From a virus: a stretch of DNA of 29,695 nt. The position numbers and the translations under genes were made by a program. The first letter of the stretch is position 1. Each line of letters begins with the position of its first letter. The stretch covers positions 1-29,695 of IMG/VR virus record IMGVR_UViG_3300047178_000050; one strand, given 5' to 3'. Shown in pieces: positions 903 through 28,820 of this stretch. Under the pieces are notes generated by a model that was not told the origin of the DNA, made no database searches, and saw only the letters and a list, made by a program, of their open reading frames with translations.

Positions 903-933
903 GTTTCAATCCACGCCCCTGTATAGGGGCGAC
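903..933 (-). CRISPR. solitary type I-C-like CRISPR repeat (candidate RNA anti-CRISPR)
   Basis: On the minus strand this 31-nt element reads GTCGCCCC, TATACA, GGGGCG, TGGATTGAAAC. CGCCCCT pairs with AGGGGCG to form a 7-bp stem with an AUAC loop, and the 11-nt tail equals the 5' handle left by Cas5 processing in type I-C. Type I-C repeats typically share the GTCGC start, GC stem and GTGGATTGAAAC end and are usually 32 nt. I see no second copy in the flanks or elsewhere in the window, and no cas genes. The element is transcribed in the functional orientation by the late operon, 4 nt after the stop of a 41-aa ORF and 91 nt before the lysozyme start. It is not a terminator, because no U-run follows the stem. 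The best reading is a phage solitary repeat unit (SRU/Racr type). A decayed mini-array is the alternative. Confidence 0.75.
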
Positions 934-1802: not shown

Positions 1803-4800
1803 CTATTGATCGCTAATTTTCTCAAGCACCACGGACGCTTTGATTGTGTGCGACCCTGTGCCTGTAATTTGGATCGCGTATTGAATGGGAGTTCCAGCGA
1901 CGGCGCGGAAGGTTGCGCTTGTTGGACCTCCACTAGTGGGCGCGTAGCAGTTGGCTCCAACTGTCGTAGTTGCGAAGGCGCAAAGATTGATCCCGTAAGG
2001 ACTACCTCCAGTTACGCTTGTCCAAACCGCCGATGTCGTTACGGCGCCTGTGGAGTCTGCCACAATTACAGTTGGGTCGATTGTAAGGCGGTACTCGCCA
2101 TCCGAGGTCGTCGTAAATAGCGTCACAGTGCCACTGCTTGCGGTCAGAGTGAGCGCGGTTTTTGCCAACACGCAAACGGATGGGAGAGAGCATGTTTCAG
2201 GTGCAGAACAGTACCAAAGGCCAGTCGAAGCCGTGTAGACGCAGCGATAAGTCATACCCGGAGCGGTCGTGAACGCTGTCGCGAAAGAGCCTATTGACGT
2301 ACCTGCCGCGAACGGTGTCGCGCTATCGGCGACAAAATCAAGGGTGCCAGAATAGAGATTGTAAGTCGCCGCGTAGTAGCCGTATGCCGCAGGCGGCGTC
2401 ATAACATTCACGGTGCTAGTACCCGTAAGGTGAAAAATCTCCATCGGTGGAACAATGGTGGATGCAGCCGTTACGATTGACCCCTCGGGCAGCGAATGGA
2501 AGATGTTAAGGTTGCCAGCCCCGGCAGCGCCGAAATGAAGGCCTGTGCTGTCTCCGTACAAAAGGGCGTCTGGTGAATTGTTGCTGACGTTGAGAGGGCA
2601 CTTGTTCGCAGGTTCATAGCAAGCTCTCCACGTAGAGCCATATTCTTCGCCAGCATACCAATCAAGCGTTGATCCGTTCATATATGCGGTAAGCGCAAAT
2701 CCCCCTCCGTAGAGGTAAGCAGGATTTGCGCTGCCAAGCGGCACGTACGATTGCAGGATGCCTGTGTACGGGTTGTAGTTCATCAAACTGTTGTAAGCGT
2801 AATCGCTGCTGGGTGTGGATGGCGTCTGAGCGATAACAGCGGCCACTTGCTTCGCGATCGTAAAGTAGCCCGCAGCCGTGCCGTGCGTGTTTGTGGAATC
2901 AATGGACGTCGGCTGGATCAAGCCCAACGCCACGCCGTTTGCATTGCTGATGAAGACCGAGGTTAGATCGACAAAAGGAATCGAAACACCAGCATAGTTA
3001 TTCTGAGTCGTAGCCGAGGCCAATGTCCGCGTTGCATCCAGAATCCCCTTTTGATTCGAGGGCGTGGCCGCTGTCGTATTTTGAGGCAAGAAGCTCATCA
3101 GCACGGTATCGCTGCCGCCCGCTTTCTCCGCTGCCAGCAGCGTAGCCATGTTGGACGAGAACGTTGCGGGCGAGTACCCCGACTGCGTTTCTCCAACACC
3201 CAACGAGTTAATCGTCAGATCGCAGCCAAGAGCCGCATAAATGGCCGACGACGATGGCGAATATGGTTTGGTGTTCACAGCCCAAAGCGCAGAGCTTGAG
3301 CCCCCACTACCCGCGTTGATGATAATCACGGCGTTTGTAGTGGAATTGTAAGCCACAGTCGCTATCAAATGAATCGTGCCTGTCACTTCGGAAACGTTCA
3401 GCGTGTGAGTTCCTACAGACCCAGCCGTAAGAACCACCTTGCCTATGCCAGCCGCGCCCGTCGCCGTGAATGGCACCGCGGTTCCTCCGTCGATGTTCGC
3501 TGTACCTGTTCCTTCGGTCGTGTCGATAGCGTAATAAAGTTCGAAGGTGTCCACAGGCCACGCTACGCCGTTACTGTCCGCGGGCGTAAACGTAATAGGT
3601 GCGGTAGACGTACTCGCAGCAATGGTAGCTATGCCGATACTCGTAAAATTGATGTCCTGGTTGAAGGACGCGCCCCGAACAATACGCGCATCGTTGATAT
3701 CGTAGCGTCCGTAAACAAAAGTCTGCCCGCCATCGCCAGCCCATGATTGCCACTGCGCGGGAACGCCGTACGTAGACGTGAGGATATGCGCGAGTGAAGT
3801 AGGCCAGTTAAATGACGTCATGTTCGTACCGCCGCCGACCGTGTTGTTGCTTAGGTAGCCAGCGGTTTCTGAGTCTCCCGCCATGCAAACGCGTGCATTG
3901 CCTGTTCCCTGCTTCACCCTAGCAAGCGCAGCCCGCCAGTGAGGCATATTGAGCGAGGCTGCAGCCACGGGGCTGGATAGGCTGTAGCTGGTTGTGTTTG
4001 GATTCTGCAATGCCGCGCTGCCGCATCCTGTAGTCGTGGTGCATATCGGCGAACCGCTGACTGTGCTTCCCGAACCCATTGCGATCGGCTCGCTCGTACT
4101 CACAGTCGTACCGTTATCGCTCAAGGAGGAGTTGACGATAGAGTTCGCACCGTTCGCCTTGGGTAGTGTGTTTGTCGTTAGAGAGGAGGAATTGGTGTTT
4201 CCTCCCGCGCTGCCGCACGTACCGCTCGCAGGAGTGCAGGGGATATAAGAAGTACCCACACCACCGTAGTACGTGTTTGTCGGCAGATTCAGTGCGGCCA
4301 CGCTGGGAAAATTGATTGTTGCAGGACCACTGCTACCGCCTGGAGTTATGGTGAAATAGTCTTCTCCATAGCCAAGACCTGGACTTCCCGTGACCGCAAA
4401 TATGGGCTCACTTGGGGGCGTACTCGGATTGTTTGGGCTGTTTCTTACGGTAAGTGATGTCGTGTTCGCCCCAGTAGACTGAAAGTACGTCTGACCGTAC
4501 TGATCAATGCAGAACTCCTCAGTACCATTTTGGGTTTGAAAGCACACACCCATAGAATCTTTTATTTGAAGAGGGTTTCCAGTTGAGTCTAGCTCAGGCG
4601 TGACAACACGCGTCGTAAAGTTTGGAGAGTCAAGCGGTGCATAGTTCTGCTGACCAAGCGTTGGATTCGTGTATGGTGCAAATACGCCCGTACTTAAGTC
4701 ATAACGAGGGATATTCAGCACGCCCCCTGTATATGTGGCCGCGCCGTTTGTGCCGGTAGTCGTGAGATTGAAGGCATTCCCTGAGACACACAAACCCCAC

Positions 4801-4937
4801 TGCGATACACTCGCTACCGTGATTAAGCAGTTACCGTTCGTGGTAGATGGGCGAATCTGATTTGGATTGATGGTCTGCGCTTTCAATGAAACAGAAAGAC
4901 CAGCCAAGAATATCGCGATGATAAAAATACGTTTCAT
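1803..4937 (-). CDS. tail fibre/spike protein with SGNH (GDSL-like) hydrolase domain and N-terminal signal peptide
   Basis: A 1044-aa, Thr/Ser/Gly/Asn-rich receptor-binding-type protein. Residues 1-20 look like a classical Sec signal peptide (MKRIFIIAIFLAGLSVSLKA, then Q), which is unusual for a tail protein. About residues 20-340 are low-complexity fibre sequence. A probable SGNH hydrolase spans roughly 345-705: block I is AGDSETAG with nucleophile Ser356, and the distal block is DSTNTHGTAAGY with His685 (Asp680 nearby). An apparent beta-rich insertion lies at about 430-545. Such domains de-acetylate or cleave esters on surface polysaccharides. The C-terminal 330 residues are again fibre-like. 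The ATG follows the previous stop directly (TAG-ATG) and has AGGGG at good spacing, which supports this start and hence the signal peptide. Confidence 0.85.
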   Translation of the reverse strand: MKRIFIIAIFLAGLSVSLKAQTINPNQIRPSTTNGNCLITVASVSQWGLCVSGNAFNLTTTGTNGAATYTGGVLNIPRYDLSTGVFAPYTNPTLGQQNYAPLDSPNFTTRVVTPELDSTGNPLQIKDSMGVCFQTQNGTEEFCIDQYGQTYFQSTGANTTSLTVRNSPNNPSTPPSEPIFAVTGSPGLGYGEDYFTITPGGSSGPATINFPSVAALNLPTNTYYGGVGTSYIPCTPASGTCGSAGGNTNSSSLTTNTLPKANGANSIVNSSLSDNGTTVSTSEPIAMGSGSTVSGSPICTTTTGCGSAALQNPNTTSYSLSSPVAAASLNMPHWRAALARVKQGTGNARVCMAGDSETAGYLSNNTVGGGTNMTSFNWPTSLAHILTSTYGVPAQWQSWAGDGGQTFVYGRYDINDARIVRGASFNQDINFTSIGIATIAASTSTAPITFTPADSNGVAWPVDTFELYYAIDTTEGTGTANIDGGTAVPFTATGAAGIGKVVLTAGSVGTHTLNVSEVTGTIHLIATVAYNSTTNAVIIINAGSGGSSSALWAVNTKPYSPSSSAIYAALGCDLTINSLGVGETQSGYSPATFSSNMATLLAAEKAGGSDTVLMSFLPQNTTAATPSNQKGILDATRTLASATTQNNYAGVSIPFVDLTSVFISNANGVALGLIQPTSIDSTNTHGTAAGYFTIAKQVAAVIAQTPSTPSSDYAYNSLMNYNPYTGILQSYVPLGSANPAYLYGGGFALTAYMNGSTLDWYAGEEYGSTWRACYEPANKCPLNVSNNSPDALLYGDSTGLHFGAAGAGNLNIFHSLPEGSIVTAASTIVPPMEIFHLTGTSTVNVMTPPAAYGYYAATYNLYSGTLDFVADSATPFAAGTSIGSFATAFTTAPGMTYRCVYTASTGLWYCSAPETCSLPSVCVLAKTALTLTASSGTVTLFTTTSDGEYRLTIDPTVIVADSTGAVTTSAVWTSVTGGSPYGINLCAFATTTVGANCYAPTSGGPTSATFRAVAGTPIQYAIQITGTGSHTIKASVVLEKISDQ

Positions 4938-5429
4938 CTAAAACCCCTGAACAAAAAGTGAGTCTCCGGGCTGCGGAGCGGTTGCATATGTAAGGACGGT
5001 TCCCACAAGCGTAAATCCAAGGCCAGGAATCAACGGTATGTTAAGCCATACAGTGGCTTGGCTAAGTGTTTTCGAAATGGAAAAAACACGATTGGTTCCA
5101 TCAATAGTGCCGGTTGGAACTTGACTGAACGGAACAGGCGCACCGCTTGAAGAACCCACGAATTGATCGGGATACACTACCTGTGTTCCATTTGGGTAGA
5201 CGTAGACCACAGTGTAAAGCTGTCCATCGTTCAGATAGGCTACCGCGTGACCCGTTCCATCCGTTATCTGCGGATTCGCTGCTGTCGTTCCTGAAGTGTC
5301 GGAATAAACGGGAGCGAGAGGAGTGAGAGCAGGAAGGTTTGTCGGCTGCGTCAAATAATAGACGAGCGTACCCGCGATGGCATTGCCAAGCGTGTTCGTG
5401 ACAGTATCATCGCGGCGTAAGATCGACAT
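4938..5429 (-). CDS. tail/structural protein, probable fibre-attachment subunit
   Basis: A 163-aa protein with ATG at 5429 behind AGGAG. The N terminus carries a repetitive motif common in phage tail appendages (RRDDTVTNTLGNAIAGTLVYY). Residues 108-163 (TIDGTNRVFSIS to YATAPQPGDSLFVQGF) resemble the small beta-domain that ends many fibre and structural proteins. It sits directly before the spike gene with no gap. The likely role is a tail appendage or adaptor for the spike, judged from composition and position rather than a named family. Confidence 0.7.
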   Translation of the reverse strand: MSILRRDDTVTNTLGNAIAGTLVYYLTQPTNLPALTPLAPVYSDTSGTTAANPQITDGTGHAVAYLNDGQLYTVVYVYPNGTQVVYPDQFVGSSSGAPVPFSQVPTGTIDGTNRVFSISKTLSQATVWLNIPLIPGLGFTLVGTVLTYATAPQPGDSLFVQGF

Positions 5430-5439
5430 TCCTTATCTC

Positions 5440-6087
5440 CTAGATGTTCACAAGCAGTGCGCCAGTTCCCGTACCCGTAAGACCCGAAAGCGTTCCACGC
5501 ACAAATAGCGCAGTCGTCTCAAAATAGCCTGTAGGAGCCGATAGGGTAAGAACAGCGGTTGTGTTCGTCCAATTCACATTGTCGCTAGATACCTGCATGG
5601 TGCAGGTCAGTGCCGAAATTCCAGACGATGCGGTCAGTTGGCAAAAGACTGCGTTCTGGCTACGCGCTCCCGAAGGCCGCGCCAAAGCTCCAGAGATAGT
5701 CGAACCAGCGACTACAGTCTCGCCTGTGACCTGCGGAATGAACGAAAGCGTACCGCTATCTGCCGTCGTCGCCAGATTAGCGCCCGTCAGTGCAAATGAA
5801 ATCGTTCCCGCTCCCGTAGCATCAAGATTGAGCGCCGTGACTGGTGCCTGCGTCACATTGAACGCGCCTGCCTGCTGCTGCGATCCACGGATATCAATCA
5901 ATGTTCCAACGACAGGAAGAACGCCGCTAAAGCCCGTTACCGTGACCGTTGCCACATTCGAGGCCAAAGCCACGTTAGTGATGTAGAAATTTCCGCCGTC
6001 CGATGCGATGCTGCCGAGCAAATAGGTTTTGCTTCCGGCCGATACGAGAAGTGTGGGCGATCCTGGGGCTGCGTTGAAATAGGGCAT
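5440..6087 (-). CDS. tail structural protein, beta-rich, unknown role
   Basis: A 215-aa Thr/Ser/Gly/Ala-rich protein with few charged residues, ATG at 6087 behind a GGAGG sequence. The second half (SSGISALTCTMQVSSDNVNW) resembles phage proteins built from beta sandwiches in which measured-value-like modules (SSDNVNWTNTTAVLTL) recur. It lies between the ejection proteins and the fibre genes, so a virion role in the tail tip or appendage is likely. No catalytic motif is visible. Confidence 0.65.
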   Translation of the reverse strand: MPYFNAAPGSPTLLVSAGSKTYLLGSIASDGGNFYITNVALASNVATVTVTGFSGVLPVVGTLIDIRGSQQQAGAFNVTQAPVTALNLDATGAGTISFALTGANLATTADSGTLSFIPQVTGETVVAGSTISGALARPSGARSQNAVFCQLTASSGISALTCTMQVSSDNVNWTNTTAVLTLSAPTGYFETTALFVRGTLSGLTGTGTGALLVNI

Positions 6088-18301: not shown

Positions 18302-19033
18302 TCACTCCTGTTTTCTGTGTTTCTCAAGGTATACTACAGCACGCACACCCCAATCTGGAAACTTCTCTACTCGCTCAAGGGCAGCGTTACAAAGATGGCA
18401 GAGCAAAGCTCTAACGTGTCCATGCTTGTGGCAGTGGTCTATCGCCAGTTGCTTCGGAACTCCGTACTGCTTGGAAGATTCGGGCTGTCCGCAAATAGCG
18501 CATAAGTTTTGTTGCTCCTCAATCATCTTTACTATTTGCTCGGGAGTTATTCCCCTGAGTTTGGATCTTCGCTTCAGCGAAATTCCCGCTACATCCATCC
18601 TATACTTCTCAGGGTTTCGGTCGCGATAAATAGCCGTATACACTCGCGATCTTTCGGCGTTCTTCAATCTCCAAGCCTTAGTGTTTTCTCCCTGACATGC
18701 TTTGCATTGCGACCCGCGAACACCGCGAGTCATATAGAACTCTGTCAGTAGTTTATTTTGCCCGCACTTCGAGCATTCCTTTTCGTGCATCTCTGCTTGC
18801 TTCTGGCGCTGCTTTTCAAGATAGCTTTCGTACTTGGCCTTGAAAACTTCCTGATTCTCTCCGCGCTTCAGTCGGTATAGCTCTCGCGCCCGATTACGGT
18901 TTACATTTCCGTATTGCTTGTTACACTCTCGGCATCTTCCATAGGGCTTGCCGTTGAAGTAGTAGAACTCATCATGCGGTTTGTCTTGCTTACACCGCCC
19001 GCAAACCTTTGTAGCCGCCGCATTAATATCCAT
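18302..19033 (-). CDS. recombination endonuclease VII-like nuclease with two N-terminal zinc ribbons
   Basis: A 243-aa protein. Two zinc ribbons come first: C11/C14 with C34/C37, and C87/C90 with C110/C113, separated by a charged helix. Residues 175-222 match the phage endonuclease VII family: zinc ligands C178, C181, C212 and C215, the DHCH motif at 199-202, and N216 after the last Cys, as N62 in T4 endonuclease VII. All key residues are present, so the enzyme is probably active, cutting branched DNA or acting as a free-standing homing nuclease. It sits between the capsid gene and the head/neck pair. An extended -10 lies directly upstream, and there is no Shine-Dalgarno. Its placement in a structural operon suggests a mobile or moron gene. 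Confidence 0.85.
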   Translation of the reverse strand: MDINAAATKVCGRCKQDKPHDEFYYFNGKPYGRCRECNKQYGNVNRNRARELYRLKRGENQEVFKAKYESYLEKQRQKQAEMHEKECSKCGQNKLLTEFYMTRGVRGSQCKACQGENTKAWRLKNAERSRVYTAIYRDRNPEKYRMDVAGISLKRRSKLRGITPEQIVKMIEEQQNLCAICGQPESSKQYGVPKQLAIDHCHKHGHVRALLCHLCNAALERVEKFPDWGVRAVVYLEKHRKQE

Positions 19034-25047: not shown

Positions 25048-25285
25048 AGTATTTCTCCTGTTCGGTAATCGATTCGCGTTCCAACTGCTCAAAACTCTTG
25101 TCGATCGGTGTGGTCACTACATTGGATGCTGGTTTGACCGCTAGAGGAATGTGCGAAGTCGGCTGCACTGATCGCTTTACCTGTTCCGCATACGCCTGAG
25201 CCTCACGCTCTAACCGGATGGCATCACGAACAATATCGATTAGCCACGCGCGTAACCGCTGTTTCCAATTTACCCGTCCCACCAC
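25031..25285 (-). CDS. unknown small helical protein downstream of the terminase
   Basis: An 84-aa protein starting with GTG at 25285 (or the next GTG at 25282) inside the last codons of the terminase gene. The first 40 residues form a basic amphipathic helix (WKQRLRAWLIDIVRDAIRLE). The second half is polar. It overlaps both neighbours, so translation is probably coupled to the terminase. No family recognised, and the coding evidence rests on good gene packing and codon continuity. Confidence 0.55.
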   Translation of the reverse strand: MVGRVNWKQRLRAWLIDIVRDAIRLEREAQAYAEQVKRSVQPTSHIPLAVKPASNVVTTPIDKSFEQLERESITEQEKYYANTQ

Positions 25286-27882
25286 TCGCCGCCTTTCGCT
25301 GCTTTCTCTTGACGCTGACTCTCGCGCAATTGTAGCAAGTAATTTGCCATTGGGTCAGGTGTTGCGGCCAATTCACGCCGCAATTTCTCTTCATGCGGGA
25401 TCGCAGCCGGTCGCCCAACGATGTGATATACGCCATAGCCTGCGCCCTGCAACGGGTCATCACCCGAGAACTCGGCAATCATTTCAGGCCGCTTATCGTC
25501 GCGGGGAGCTGCAATCAGCGTATCAATCAGTTTTGGGCAATCTTCGCATATCTGCCAGTTCCGCACCATGCGCTTTTGGCCTGTCTCGTCTTTTGCTCCC
25601 CCCCAAATCTCCTTGCGTAGCAGGTTGTACATCGTCTGTTCGCGGCCTAGTTTGTCTTTGCCTGAGTTGAGCGGAAGCGGGATGCCGTAGGGCTTCAAAA
25701 CTGCTCCCAGACGCATAGCCACACTGTTAACAGACGCGCCAAACGTCTTCGTTGCCGTACTTGCAAAAGCATCATGCGAAAACGGAAACGCCGCAATCTT
25801 CGGAAACTTGCCTTTGTCATCAACCAGCCAAGAAACGATACGTTCTCCCAGCATCTCGGGGTCATGGTGTTGAATCATCATTTCGTGACCAGTGCGGATA
25901 ACCCCATAGTCGTCCATGTAGTGCCGGTAGAGTGCCGTGTAGTGCTCGAATCCCCAATCCCCGCTGATCCATTGCCTATGCCACGGCATCGGGTTCCAAT
26001 CCGTGTCAGGAACTACGTTGAACGCCCCATCAAACGCGCCTGTAAAGTATCCGCCCGTAACATCCCACGAGCCATCCATGAGAGCCATACGCAGCCGCTC
26101 GGGGAGCGAGTTTAGTCCCGCAATGAACTGCGGATCGTTGGCGAAAATAGGATTGTCGAGGTAGGTACAGGGGAAGTAAGCGTAGTCCTCTGGCTTGTAG
26201 GCGCGTTTTTGATTCGCGTCCATCTCATCGTATGGGCGATGCTCTACAAAAACTTTCCGTACCCAGGTAGACCCCACTCCAACCGGATTGCCAGCTCCCA
26301 GCCTACGGGCGTAGGGCGACACAGGACAGCGGTTCCAAGCAGCAATGTTATTCCACTGCCCCCAGGTAAAATCACACAATTCATCGTAGTTGATGTCGAG
26401 CCACTGGCCTTGCCATCCATAAACATCCGCCTCGTATTGCATCGATCCAAACTGAGTGACCGCATTGTTGTGCCAAGTCACGGTCAGTGTCGTCTCGTTG
26501 AACTTCTTGTATAGCGATGCATCGATTTTTTCCCGAAAGCGTGTGATGAGCGTGTTTCGCACCATCGGCTGCGTCCGGCGAAGCATTAGCGTTTGGACTT
26601 GCTTACCATCCTCCATGCTGAACTCATTACAGCGGATTAGATTTTCCATCAGAAGGGCGGTAGTGTTGTGCGTCGGGATCATCGACCGGCCACAGAGATA
26701 GAGATGCGATGGAGAATCAACCGCGATACAGCGCATCGGAACGCTATCCACGCGTTCGGCCCCAACGATATAGCGGAACTTCGTGGTTCGCCTCGGCTTG
26801 CTGGGCAGTCTTTTCAGCTTGCGAGCGATACGGAATATGGGCAGTTCGGTAGTGAAGCAGATGCGATATTTCACGCCGCAATCACGTCCCTTGATCGTCG
26901 CTCGCCCCGTTTTGAGCGTAGCCTTTATGCCCAGACTGATGGCCAACTCATGCACGTCAACCGCAAGCGCAGGCAGGATGGTGCAGAACTCACAGAATCC
27001 GCTCTTGCCATCTGCGCATCCATCAGCGTCCATTAACCCTTGGAAAAGGTAAAGCCTCTGCTCAGCGGAAGCTCGCAGGTATGTGCGCGGAATATGCTTG
27101 TTTCCCAGCATACCTTCCCGCCGAAGCATTGCCGTCAAGCCATCGACACGGAACTTGATAGGATCTCCGGTAGCACGCACAGGATAGGCCAGGTTATCGA
27201 ATACCTCGGCGTCCACGCCATAAATCAATCCACTCTGGCTATTCCCATCGCCCAGCCATGCGCCCAGGGTATACGGGTCGATAGGCAAAGTAGCAGCGGG
27301 AAGCGTCAATGACCCAGCCAGTGCAACGGCATGATTAGTTCGACCACTCTTTGTCGTCAGCGTGTCGGCGATCTCTTGCGTGGTACGCACCGATGGTCGA
27401 GGCTCCTTGCACTGTGGAGCGCGTGACGCATTGAGCGCAGCCATCCAAGGACGCCGGCCAGTTGATCGTGATGCACGCTTGGCCCTACGTTGGGCACGCC
27501 ACTCAGGATCGCAGCGGGTGAGCGCGGCCAGTTCGACCGCATCCCATGTCTCCCAAAGATGGTCAGCGCAGCATGTCTGCTCGGAGCCGTCGTCAAAGGT
27601 AATGCGATACGCTACAGAGTCGCTCGTCACTGGAGATATGTAGGTGACCGAGCACGCATCCCCAGACTCACAAAAGACGCGATCCCCAACTGCTATATCA
27701 CCTATAGTCGTCCAGCCCTTGGGGGTTGGAATGGGCGTATCTAGGCTCAATTGCTTGCCAGGGCCAGCCGCTCCTCCTAGAAAGCCATAGGGCGCAGGGG
27801 AAGCGTGAAACTTGCGCTGCATCGGATAGGGGCTGTAGGACTTTTTTAGATCAATGACGGCGCGTTCGGGGCCAGTAATCAT
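25270..27882 (-). CDS. terL: terminase large subunit interrupted by an intein (DNA packaging ATPase/nuclease)
   Basis: The primary product of 870 aa is a terminase ATPase split by a 363-aa intein, leaving a spliced protein of 507 aa. The Walker A motif reads GAAGPGK, then the intein, then TT (K43 and T407 flank the insertion). Walker B is WLDINYDE (about residues 494-501), and a GNPVG coupling-type sequence follows near 530. The RNase H-like nuclease has SGDWG (Asp642), SHDAF (Asp704) and FSGDDPLQGAGYG. It packages DNA with the small subunit and portal. A TTG at 27888 could start two codons earlier, but the ATG at 27882 overlaps the previous stop as ATGA. Without splicing the ATP site would be destroyed, so splicing is essential. 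Confidence 0.95.
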   Translation of the reverse strand: MITGPERAVIDLKKSYSPYPMQRKFHASPAPYGFLGGAAGPGKQLSLDTPIPTPKGWTTIGDIAVGDRVFCESGDACSVTYISPVTSDSVAYRITFDDGSEQTCCADHLWETWDAVELAALTRCDPEWRAQRRAKRASRSTGRRPWMAALNASRAPQCKEPRPSVRTTQEIADTLTTKSGRTNHAVALAGSLTLPAATLPIDPYTLGAWLGDGNSQSGLIYGVDAEVFDNLAYPVRATGDPIKFRVDGLTAMLRREGMLGNKHIPRTYLRASAEQRLYLFQGLMDADGCADGKSGFCEFCTILPALAVDVHELAISLGIKATLKTGRATIKGRDCGVKYRICFTTELPIFRIARKLKRLPSKPRRTTKFRYIVGAERVDSVPMRCIAVDSPSHLYLCGRSMIPTHNTTALLMENLIRCNEFSMEDGKQVQTLMLRRTQPMVRNTLITRFREKIDASLYKKFNETTLTVTWHNNAVTQFGSMQYEADVYGWQGQWLDINYDELCDFTWGQWNNIAAWNRCPVSPYARRLGAGNPVGVGSTWVRKVFVEHRPYDEMDANQKRAYKPEDYAYFPCTYLDNPIFANDPQFIAGLNSLPERLRMALMDGSWDVTGGYFTGAFDGAFNVVPDTDWNPMPWHRQWISGDWGFEHYTALYRHYMDDYGVIRTGHEMMIQHHDPEMLGERIVSWLVDDKGKFPKIAAFPFSHDAFASTATKTFGASVNSVAMRLGAVLKPYGIPLPLNSGKDKLGREQTMYNLLRKEIWGGAKDETGQKRMVRNWQICEDCPKLIDTLIAAPRDDKRPEMIAEFSGDDPLQGAGYGVYHIVGRPAAIPHEEKLRRELAATPDPMANYLLQLRESQRQEKAAKGGEWWDG
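26665..27753 (-). mobile_element. class 3 intein with LAGLIDADG homing endonuclease, in terL Walker A
   Basis: Intein residues 44-406 of the precursor begin with QLSLDTPIPTPKGWTTIGD and end in IPTHN, before Thr+1. The first residue is Gln, not Cys or Ser. The class 3 signature is complete: Trp110 at block B position 12 (CADHLW), Cys385 at block F position 4 (RCIAVDSPSHLYL), and Thr404 at block G position 5 (THN). In class 3 inteins the block F Cys attacks the upstream peptide bond directly. The middle holds a LAGLIDADG (DOD) endonuclease: TLGAWLGDG (205-213) and GLMDADG (282-288). Insertion is at the G-K/T step of Walker A, a preferred intein site because that DNA is conserved. All splicing and endonuclease motifs look intact. 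Confidence 0.93.
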
Positions 27883-28298
27883 TCCCAAATGTCTCCAACC
27901 TTACGAAAGCGACCGTGCAAGCCTTTGTGGCCGATGGGCAAACCACAACCAAGGATGTCGCCTGAGTCGTTTGGCTTATCACGATATCGACAAAATTCTA
28001 CAGGTTCAGGGTTGGCAATCGCTTCGCGACTCGTTAGGCTTGCCATAGTTTCGAGTGCTATGCGCTTCCTATACTCAAAAGTTGAGTTGGGGATGGGAAT
28101 CTGATTCGAACAGGTAGCTGCCACGCCACAAGCGTTGCCGCCAGTCGGGAGTTCTGCCCCTTGAACTATCCCACCATTCTTATTCCATGAACGCTTACGG
28201 CATTTTGAAGAAGCGCAGTGGGAAGGCCAAGTCTCACCCTTGATCCAGCGGTGTCCGCACTCGTCACACTTCCAACACTCCACAAACGCTGTACTCAT
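27879..28298 (-). CDS. zinc-ribbon protein with second His/Cys motif, between terS and terL
   Basis: A 139-aa protein. The N-terminal zinc ribbon uses C11, C14, C28 and C33 (KCDECGHRW, then HCASSKC). The C-terminal 40 residues hold a second Cys/His cluster (FCRYRDK and CGLPIGHKGLHG) resembling short zinc-binding elements of unknown function. It shares the ribbon and the HxW position with the 63-aa protein at 29334-29525, so the two are probably related. Its stop overlaps the terL start (ATGA). It has no Shine-Dalgarno but a TATACT box 6 nt before the ATG. A DNA- or RNA-binding accessory of packaging or a moron gene are both possible. Confidence 0.7.
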   Translation of the reverse strand: MSTAFVECWKCDECGHRWIKGETWPSHCASSKCRKRSWNKNGGIVQGAELPTGGNACGVAATCSNQIPIPNSTFEYRKRIALETMASLTSREAIANPEPVEFCRYRDKPNDSGDILGCGLPIGHKGLHGRFRKVGDIWE

Positions 28299-28340: not shown

Positions 28341-28820
28341 TTACTTCCGCTCCGGCCTCGGCACATCGTTCACAAGCTGCACTCCAACCGAACCGCCGTG
28401 GTTCAGATCGAGCTTCTCGCCGTATTTCTTCGGGGCCAGCTGCCCAGCTCGCTTAAGTAGCGTCTGCACAATCAGTTTAGATCGCTCCACATTGTCAGCA
28501 GTCCGAGTCTCTGTAAACGTACCACCAGATTTTGACTCTTTCTCCGTGCTGATTTCGCCTATGCGCGAGCTAAATGCTTCCTTTACAGCAAGATCGACGA
28601 AATAATCACCTTGAATTTCACGCGCACGTACGGAACTCTGCCGAAATGCTTCGTTCGATTCCAGCCAGCGCCAAACTGTTCTGAGTGAAGGAGTTTTGGG
28701 ATAATCCCCGTTCCGCATCTCCAAAAGGATATCCTCAAGAGAAAGCTGAGTAGTAGCTATACGCTCACACACTTCATCGGCTATCTCTTGATCGAAGGGA
28801 ATTGATGGACGACCAGCCAT
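28341..28820 (-). CDS. terS: terminase small subunit
   Basis: A 159-aa protein with a helix-turn-helix of the small-terminase type (MRNGDYPKTPSLRTVWRWLE, then SNEAFRQSSVRAREIQ). The central helix pair (YFVDLAVKEAFSS; SKLIVQTLLKRAGQLAPKKY) is the usual oligomerisation region. It recognises packaging DNA and feeds it to the large subunit encoded one gene downstream. The ATG follows the previous stop immediately (TAA-ATG) with AGAGG at good spacing. Confidence 0.9.
   Translation of the reverse strand: MAGRPSIPFDQEIADEVCERIATTQLSLEDILLEMRNGDYPKTPSLRTVWRWLESNEAFRQSSVRAREIQGDYFVDLAVKEAFSSRIGEISTEKESKSGGTFTETRTADNVERSKLIVQTLLKRAGQLAPKKYGEKLDLNHGGSVGVQLVNDVPRPERK

Follow-up and report, generated by a model that had tools for sequence, protein, structure and literature searches.

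A solitary CRISPR repeat between the genes of a phage late operon raises the question of what it does there: whether it acts against host immunity, regulates the genes around it, guides Cas proteins to a target, or does nothing. The repeat considered here lies at positions 903-933 on the minus strand of an IMG/VR virus record, a short distance upstream of the lysozyme gene. An earlier note, made from the sequence alone, took it for a type I-C-like repeat and a candidate RNA anti-CRISPR (Racr), or alternatively a one-spacer guide, with a possible link to lysis timing.

Genomic context of the repeat

The window, meaning the whole stretch of DNA analysed, is the entire IMG/VR record of 29,695 bp with linear ends. 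Its main genes are encoded on the minus strand, from the terminases down to the lysozyme. The features that bear on the repeat are as follows:

28341-28820, minus: small terminase, Sf6 type
25270-27888, minus: large terminase
1239-1673, minus: 144-aa coiled-coil protein with one hydrophobic segment, of lysis-module type by appearance alone; no significant family match
1083-1232, minus: small proline-rich ORF of 49 aa (47 aa from the ATG following AAAAGGAG); no family match
938-1063, minus: small, putatively coding ORF of 41 aa (METCIVFSEILGLK...NPYTGLD); no clear ribosome-binding site
903-933, minus: solitary type I-C CRISPR repeat and candidate Racr, from sequence, fold and a 29/31 match to the repeat of a real I-C array
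914-933, minus: predicted 20-nt 3' tag after Cas5c cleavage, GT plus the hairpin CGCCCCT-ATAC-AGGGGCG, from the fold and with the cut site by analogy with Cas5d
903-913, minus: predicted 11-nt 5' handle TGGATTGAAAC, from sequence and the same analogy with Cas5d
866-902, minus: leader between repeat and lysozyme gene, in the position of a pseudo-spacer; no protospacer in the collections searched
281-865, minus: phage lysozyme/endolysin, likely start near 811 (PF00959, E = 2.6e-30; PHROG endolysin)
3-284, minus: 93-aa ORF with a hydrophobic segment, a possible holin by position and sequence alone; no family match

The repeat is intergenic, with the stop codon of the 41-aa ORF 4 nt ahead of it and the lysozyme gene beyond; the small overlapping ORFs that cross 903-933 on both strands lack support. 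A good ribosome-binding site precedes the ATG near 811 (AAAGGAATTGCTATG), the likely lysozyme start, which lies ~90 nt past the repeat; an alternative longer start (865) would leave a gap of 37 nt. The element thus lies upstream of the lysozyme gene as the earlier note had it, but not 'just upstream' of the likely start. A PADLOC scan recognised no acr gene near the repeat.

Several other features of the record are worth recording. An Endonuclease VII family protein (PF02945, E = 1.8e-17) is encoded inside the structural region (18302-19033, minus). The large terminase holds an in-frame insertion of ~1.09 kb (26668-27753, minus) that is missing in three relatives (L101, L108 and L109), matches LAGLIDADG/homing endonucleases and splits the Walker A motif (GPGK|TT). 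It is an intein whose first residue seems to be Gln (QLSLDTP...) and whose last residues before T seem to be HN. A likely tail fibre protein of 1044 aa, which has no family match and whose N-terminal segment resembles a signal peptide, is encoded at 1803-4937 (minus); its gene shares a 16-mer (ACAACCCGTACACAGG, coding NPYTG) with the 41-aa ORF that precedes the repeat.

Identity and solitary state of the repeat

The minus strand at 903-933 reads GTCGCCCCTATACAGGGGCGTGGATTGAAAC (31 nt) and is a genuine type I-C CRISPR repeat, intact rather than degraded and with all fixed I-C features present. As RNA it folds into a stem of 7 bp (CGCCCCU/AGGGGCG) that closes a 4-nt loop and leaves an 11-nt tail unpaired, at an energy of -13.2 kcal/mol against a shuffled mean of -6.3 (z = -3.2). 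A consensus-type match at 25 fixed bases is expected by chance ~5e-11 times in a window of 29,695 bp. A permissive Rfam scan of 780-1080 returned a single family, CRISPR-DR9, placed exactly on 903-933 and covering model positions 1-37 of 37, with a score (E = 0.0026, 24.2 bits) below the curated gathering cut-off of 45; at the gathering threshold, Rfam gave no match. Sequence, fold and Rfam family agree with the 31-nt minus-strand repeat and 7-bp stem described in the earlier note.

The earlier observation that neither a second copy nor a cas gene accompanies the element is likewise borne out in the window. With up to three mismatches allowed, the repeat occurs once in all 29,695 nt; no degenerate second repeat was found in the 300 nt on either side, and no cas gene lies near it. 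It is thus a solitary unit within the window: no further repeat, complete or partial, lies within 100 nt of it, and there is no nearby array, a status judged inside a record that ends 902 nt downstream of it.

When ~85,000 genomes were scanned for I-C repeats of 31 nt that share the closing pair of 903-933, two genomes matched. One of them, the Rhodobacteraceae MAG NORP251 (L116), carries the repeat GTCGCCCCTTCACAGGGGCGTGGATTGAAAC three times, identical to 903-933 at 29 of 31 positions; both differences are in the loop, and the fold and its energy are the same. These copies adjoin a cas3-cas5c-cas8c-cas7c-cas4-cas1 operon, whose genes match Cas1c, Cas4, Cas7c/Csd2, Cas8c/Csd1, Cas5c and Cas3. 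The array shares with the window repeat its unusual 31-nt length, its stem and its handle; as a real array, it also has spacers and an adjacent cas operon, and what ties it to the phage is the likeness of the repeat. The window repeat therefore matches known repeats over its full length, in this array and end to end in CRISPR-DR9. The exact sequence was found in none of the ~85,000 genomes, and no repeat with 0-1 mismatches occurred in ~790 sampled genomes from the family and phylum of the MAG. Matches in a phage collection were weak (at best 84% over 30 nt, in a record without annotation), and the fuller matches in a plasmid collection were other I-C repeats at 84-91%. Nine related phage records (portal 86-88% identical) end before the lysis module and so lack the repeat region.

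Solitary type I-C repeats across viral genomes

IMG/VR was scanned with three patterns and with a fourth that targets repeats of 33 nt, which together yielded ~108 distinct solitary I-C repeats with sufficient flank (loci L007-L188), with genes around them called by a simple ORF script rather than a gene finder. When 40 whole records were searched for further copies, 34 held one copy and no record had an array of more than two repeats. Among loci whose genes share a predominant direction, 48 have the repeat in sense with those genes and 18 have it antisense (p = 0.0003). Repeats also tend to follow stop codons closely: 13/108 begin no more than 4 nt after the stop of a sense ORF that is 40 aa or longer, where random positions would give 2.1, and 34/108 begin within 25 nt, where 10 would be expected. 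The window repeat, 4 nt after a stop, belongs to this stop-codon-adjacent group. Taken together, orientation and placement suggest that these elements work as RNA and speak against a function confined to the DNA, for example as an integration site. Two stem positions left free in the search pattern are Watson-Crick paired in 69/72 repeats, against 22 expected if the two sides were independent, so the sequence of the stem varies but its pairing persists. Since host repeats compensate in the same way, what this shows is that the repeat is intact, not that the phage itself selects for it. The set provides a testable rule for the class, namely a sense-strand repeat directly after a stop codon with its stem kept by compensation.

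On some viral contigs, two or three solitary repeats occur at spacings of several hundred bases. Those at 358-389 and 955-986 of L016 flank a single transglycosylase gene (PF01464), those at 5190-5220 and 6177-6208 of L073 differ in sequence and flank one gene of 297 aa, and L045 has repeats at 1026-1057 and 1604-1635. In L009, L012, L014, L016, L020, L051, L096, L141, L181, L186 and others, AAAC is repeated right after the repeat end (GAAAC-AAAC...), several times over in L125 and L141.

A candidate RNA anti-CRISPR

The best explanation of 903-933, by analogy with characterised elements and with a probability of about 60%, is that it is a type I-C solitary repeat unit working as an RNA anti-CRISPR. 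In favour of this reading are the full-length repeat with its I-C stem and handle, its near-identity to the repeat of a genuine array, the single copy, the RacrIC1-like layout and, in the class, the sense bias, the closeness to stop codons, the compensated stem and the prevalence of single copies. The class is already known: 2,103 solitary repeat units have been found in viruses, and several such units have been shown to be Racrs (PMC10651486, which cites an earlier report by Faure et al. 2019). The assignment made in the earlier note fits this published class, of which the window repeat would be a new candidate member.

Type I-C systems are without Cas6, and Cas5c (Cas5d) instead binds the hairpin of the repeat, which it cleaves at the base of the stem (PMC3890593). 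From a 32-nt repeat, the Cas5d of B. halodurans produces a 5' tag of 11 nt, carried by the following crRNA, and a 3' tag of 21 nt (PMC3890593). Given the sequence, fold, solitary state, orientation and real I-C match computed here, a course of transcription, Cas5c binding and cutting, and inhibition can be proposed. The repeat is in sense with the minus-strand late operon, as the earlier note had stated. No sigma-70 promoter within 260 nt upstream scored better than random same-strand pieces, so its transcription, if any, would be by read-through, and 903-933 is presumably transcribed with the late operon. The resulting RNA would fold into the computed hairpin, which host Cas5c may recognise. 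Cas5c would then bind and probably cut, remaining on the upstream hairpin product and leaving the 5' handle on the lysozyme mRNA. As neither cleavage product would be a complete crRNA, Cas5c, possibly together with Cas7c and Cas8c, would end in non-productive complexes and host type I-C interference would fall, as the precedents of RacrIC1 and RacrIF1 suggest.

The position in the late lysis module would be an odd time for expressing an inhibitor of immunity, and counts against the Racr reading, as do the lack of an evident local promoter and of an identical host repeat in the genomes searched. The placement in a late lysis operon and not an early anti-defence locus is also the only unusual trait of the repeat, which would be a further I-C candidate among RNA anti-CRISPRs and comes from a phage group not otherwise described.

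Possible origin from host arrays and the possibility of a passive scar

The repeat might instead be a passive, functionless scar from a host array, left by recombination or misdirected Cas1-Cas2 and harmless where it follows a stop codon. Although this is unlikely for the window copy, some other solitary I-C repeats bear signs of such an origin, in an analysis made post hoc, after the data had been seen. The I-C PAM, TTC, stands exactly 34 or 35 nt upstream in 21/108 repeats, against ~1.7 per position. In the first-scan set (n = 73) it is exactly 34 nt upstream in nine, against ~1.1 per position, and in an independent set (n = 35) it is at 34 nt in four and at 35 nt in five, against 0.55. In the marked examples, which include L020, L021, L027, L030, L079, L177 and L182, a PAM-marked stretch of spacer length ends exactly at the repeat.

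A direct duplication of 10-35 nt, X-repeat-X', flanks 9/108 repeats, against 0.4 in shuffled pairs (L027 at 5724-5755 on the reverse strand, L183, L175, L051, L162, L063, L049, L131 and L154). The duplications are exact (34/34 in L027, 33/33 in L183), diverged (25/35, 24/34) or short (10-15 nt), and X starts right after TTC, TTT or CTC with one or two exceptions, in which the triplet is displaced by a single base. When a PAM and a 10-of-11 seed match were required across whole loci, the targets of the downstream sequences were the adjacent copies only (5/5), and none was adjacent in the controls. The L027 duplication interrupts an otherwise continuous open frame resembling, by sequence, an IS3-type transposase. 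Candidate origins of these marks are exchange with host arrays at matching spacers, misdirected Cas1-Cas2-Cas4 or, for the exact copies, assembly chimeras, a possible explanation of L027 and L183.

The window copy itself has neither the TTC mark nor a flanking duplication, which argues against a scar. For the same reason, its assembly as a chimera via shared spacer or protospacer stretches is not supported. The repeat is also intact, and the sense bias and stem compensation of the class speak for use as RNA. A PAM-anchored scar in a minority of repeats could nevertheless reveal the route by which phages take up repeats from the immunity directed against them, an insight that, if true, would be worth more than the single element at 903-933.

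Processing, guide and terminator alternatives

It is improbable that the repeat serves chiefly as a Cas5c cut site in the late mRNA, parting the lysozyme message from the upstream genes and so changing lysis timing in type I-C hosts. Strand and position are right for such a site, ~90 nt ahead of the likely lysozyme start, and other phages carry repeats between genes of one operon (e.g. L016 and L073). However, the neighbouring genes vary among phages, so that there is no consistent regulated gene, and cleavage is also expected as a side effect in the Racr model. The link to lysis timing drawn in the earlier note fares poorly for the same kind of reason: solitary I-C repeats elsewhere adjoin portal, terminase, head protease, nuclease and unknown genes with no enrichment beside lysis genes in the set, so a lysozyme neighbour does not characterise the class. 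A processing site that depends on Cas5c and ties lysozyme expression to host type I-C, draining Cas proteins and tuning lysis together, is decidedly doubtful.

There is very little likelihood that the repeat encodes a one-spacer crRNA-like guide, whether aimed at a different phage or serving CreA/scaRNA-like repression. The transcript would continue for at least 35 nt past the handle, but such a guide would have no second repeat to end it and no evident target. With a PAM and 9 of 11 seed positions required, the downstream 35 nt had no target in the window; they had no protospacer in 1.7 Mb of fetched loci (best 23/35), and none in 50,697 phage records, where matches were at chance level. The guide role and protospacer raised in the earlier note thus found no counterpart in these collections. 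Nor does the window contain, at the same 9-of-11 seed setting, the TTC-flanked partial promoter match of a CreA-type guide. With no second repeat in the window and no protospacer in these collections, the element does not have the form of a mini-array or one-spacer guide. A chance hairpin or terminator unrelated to CRISPR is ruled out despite the GC-rich hairpin at 903-933, given the 25 fixed I-C consensus positions (chance 5e-11), the CRISPR-DR9 match, and a stem that is followed by no T run and at which no terminator is predicted.

Comparison with known systems

Use of host Cascade by a repeat outside an array is known from CreTA, in which degenerate CreA repeats guide Cascade to a toxin promoter (PMC9458426). 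The window repeat resembles CreA in lying outside an array, where it could engage host Cascade, and differs from it in being intact and in having no guided target found in the searches above. It is closer to RacrIF1, which ties up Cas6f and Cas7f (PMC10651486), and to other solitary repeat units, being likewise solitary, intergenic and able to form a repeat-mimicking hairpin. Type I-F uses Cas6f, whereas the I-C processing enzyme is Cas5c; as Cas5c leaves an 11-nt 5' handle on the downstream RNA, the proteins sequestered in type I-C may differ from those bound by RacrIF1.

The closest parallel is RacrIC1, a Bifidobacterium prophage RNA anti-CRISPR against type I-C (Camara-Wilpert et al. 2023; PMC10651486). 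RacrIC1 shares a transcript with an AcrIC5 homologue, whose stop codon it follows by 11 nt, and is by itself enough to rescue phage growth from type I-C (PMC10651486). It has a mapped transcription start and demonstrated activity and follows an acrIC5 gene, whereas the window repeat follows a putative 41-aa ORF in a late lysis module, with no evident promoter. In both, a single I-C repeat in a phage is co-directional with its neighbours and lies directly after the stop of a small ORF (at 4 nt in the window), without cas genes and without a second repeat. This shared layout makes a decoy for Cas5c and its partners the most likely function of the repeat at 903-933.
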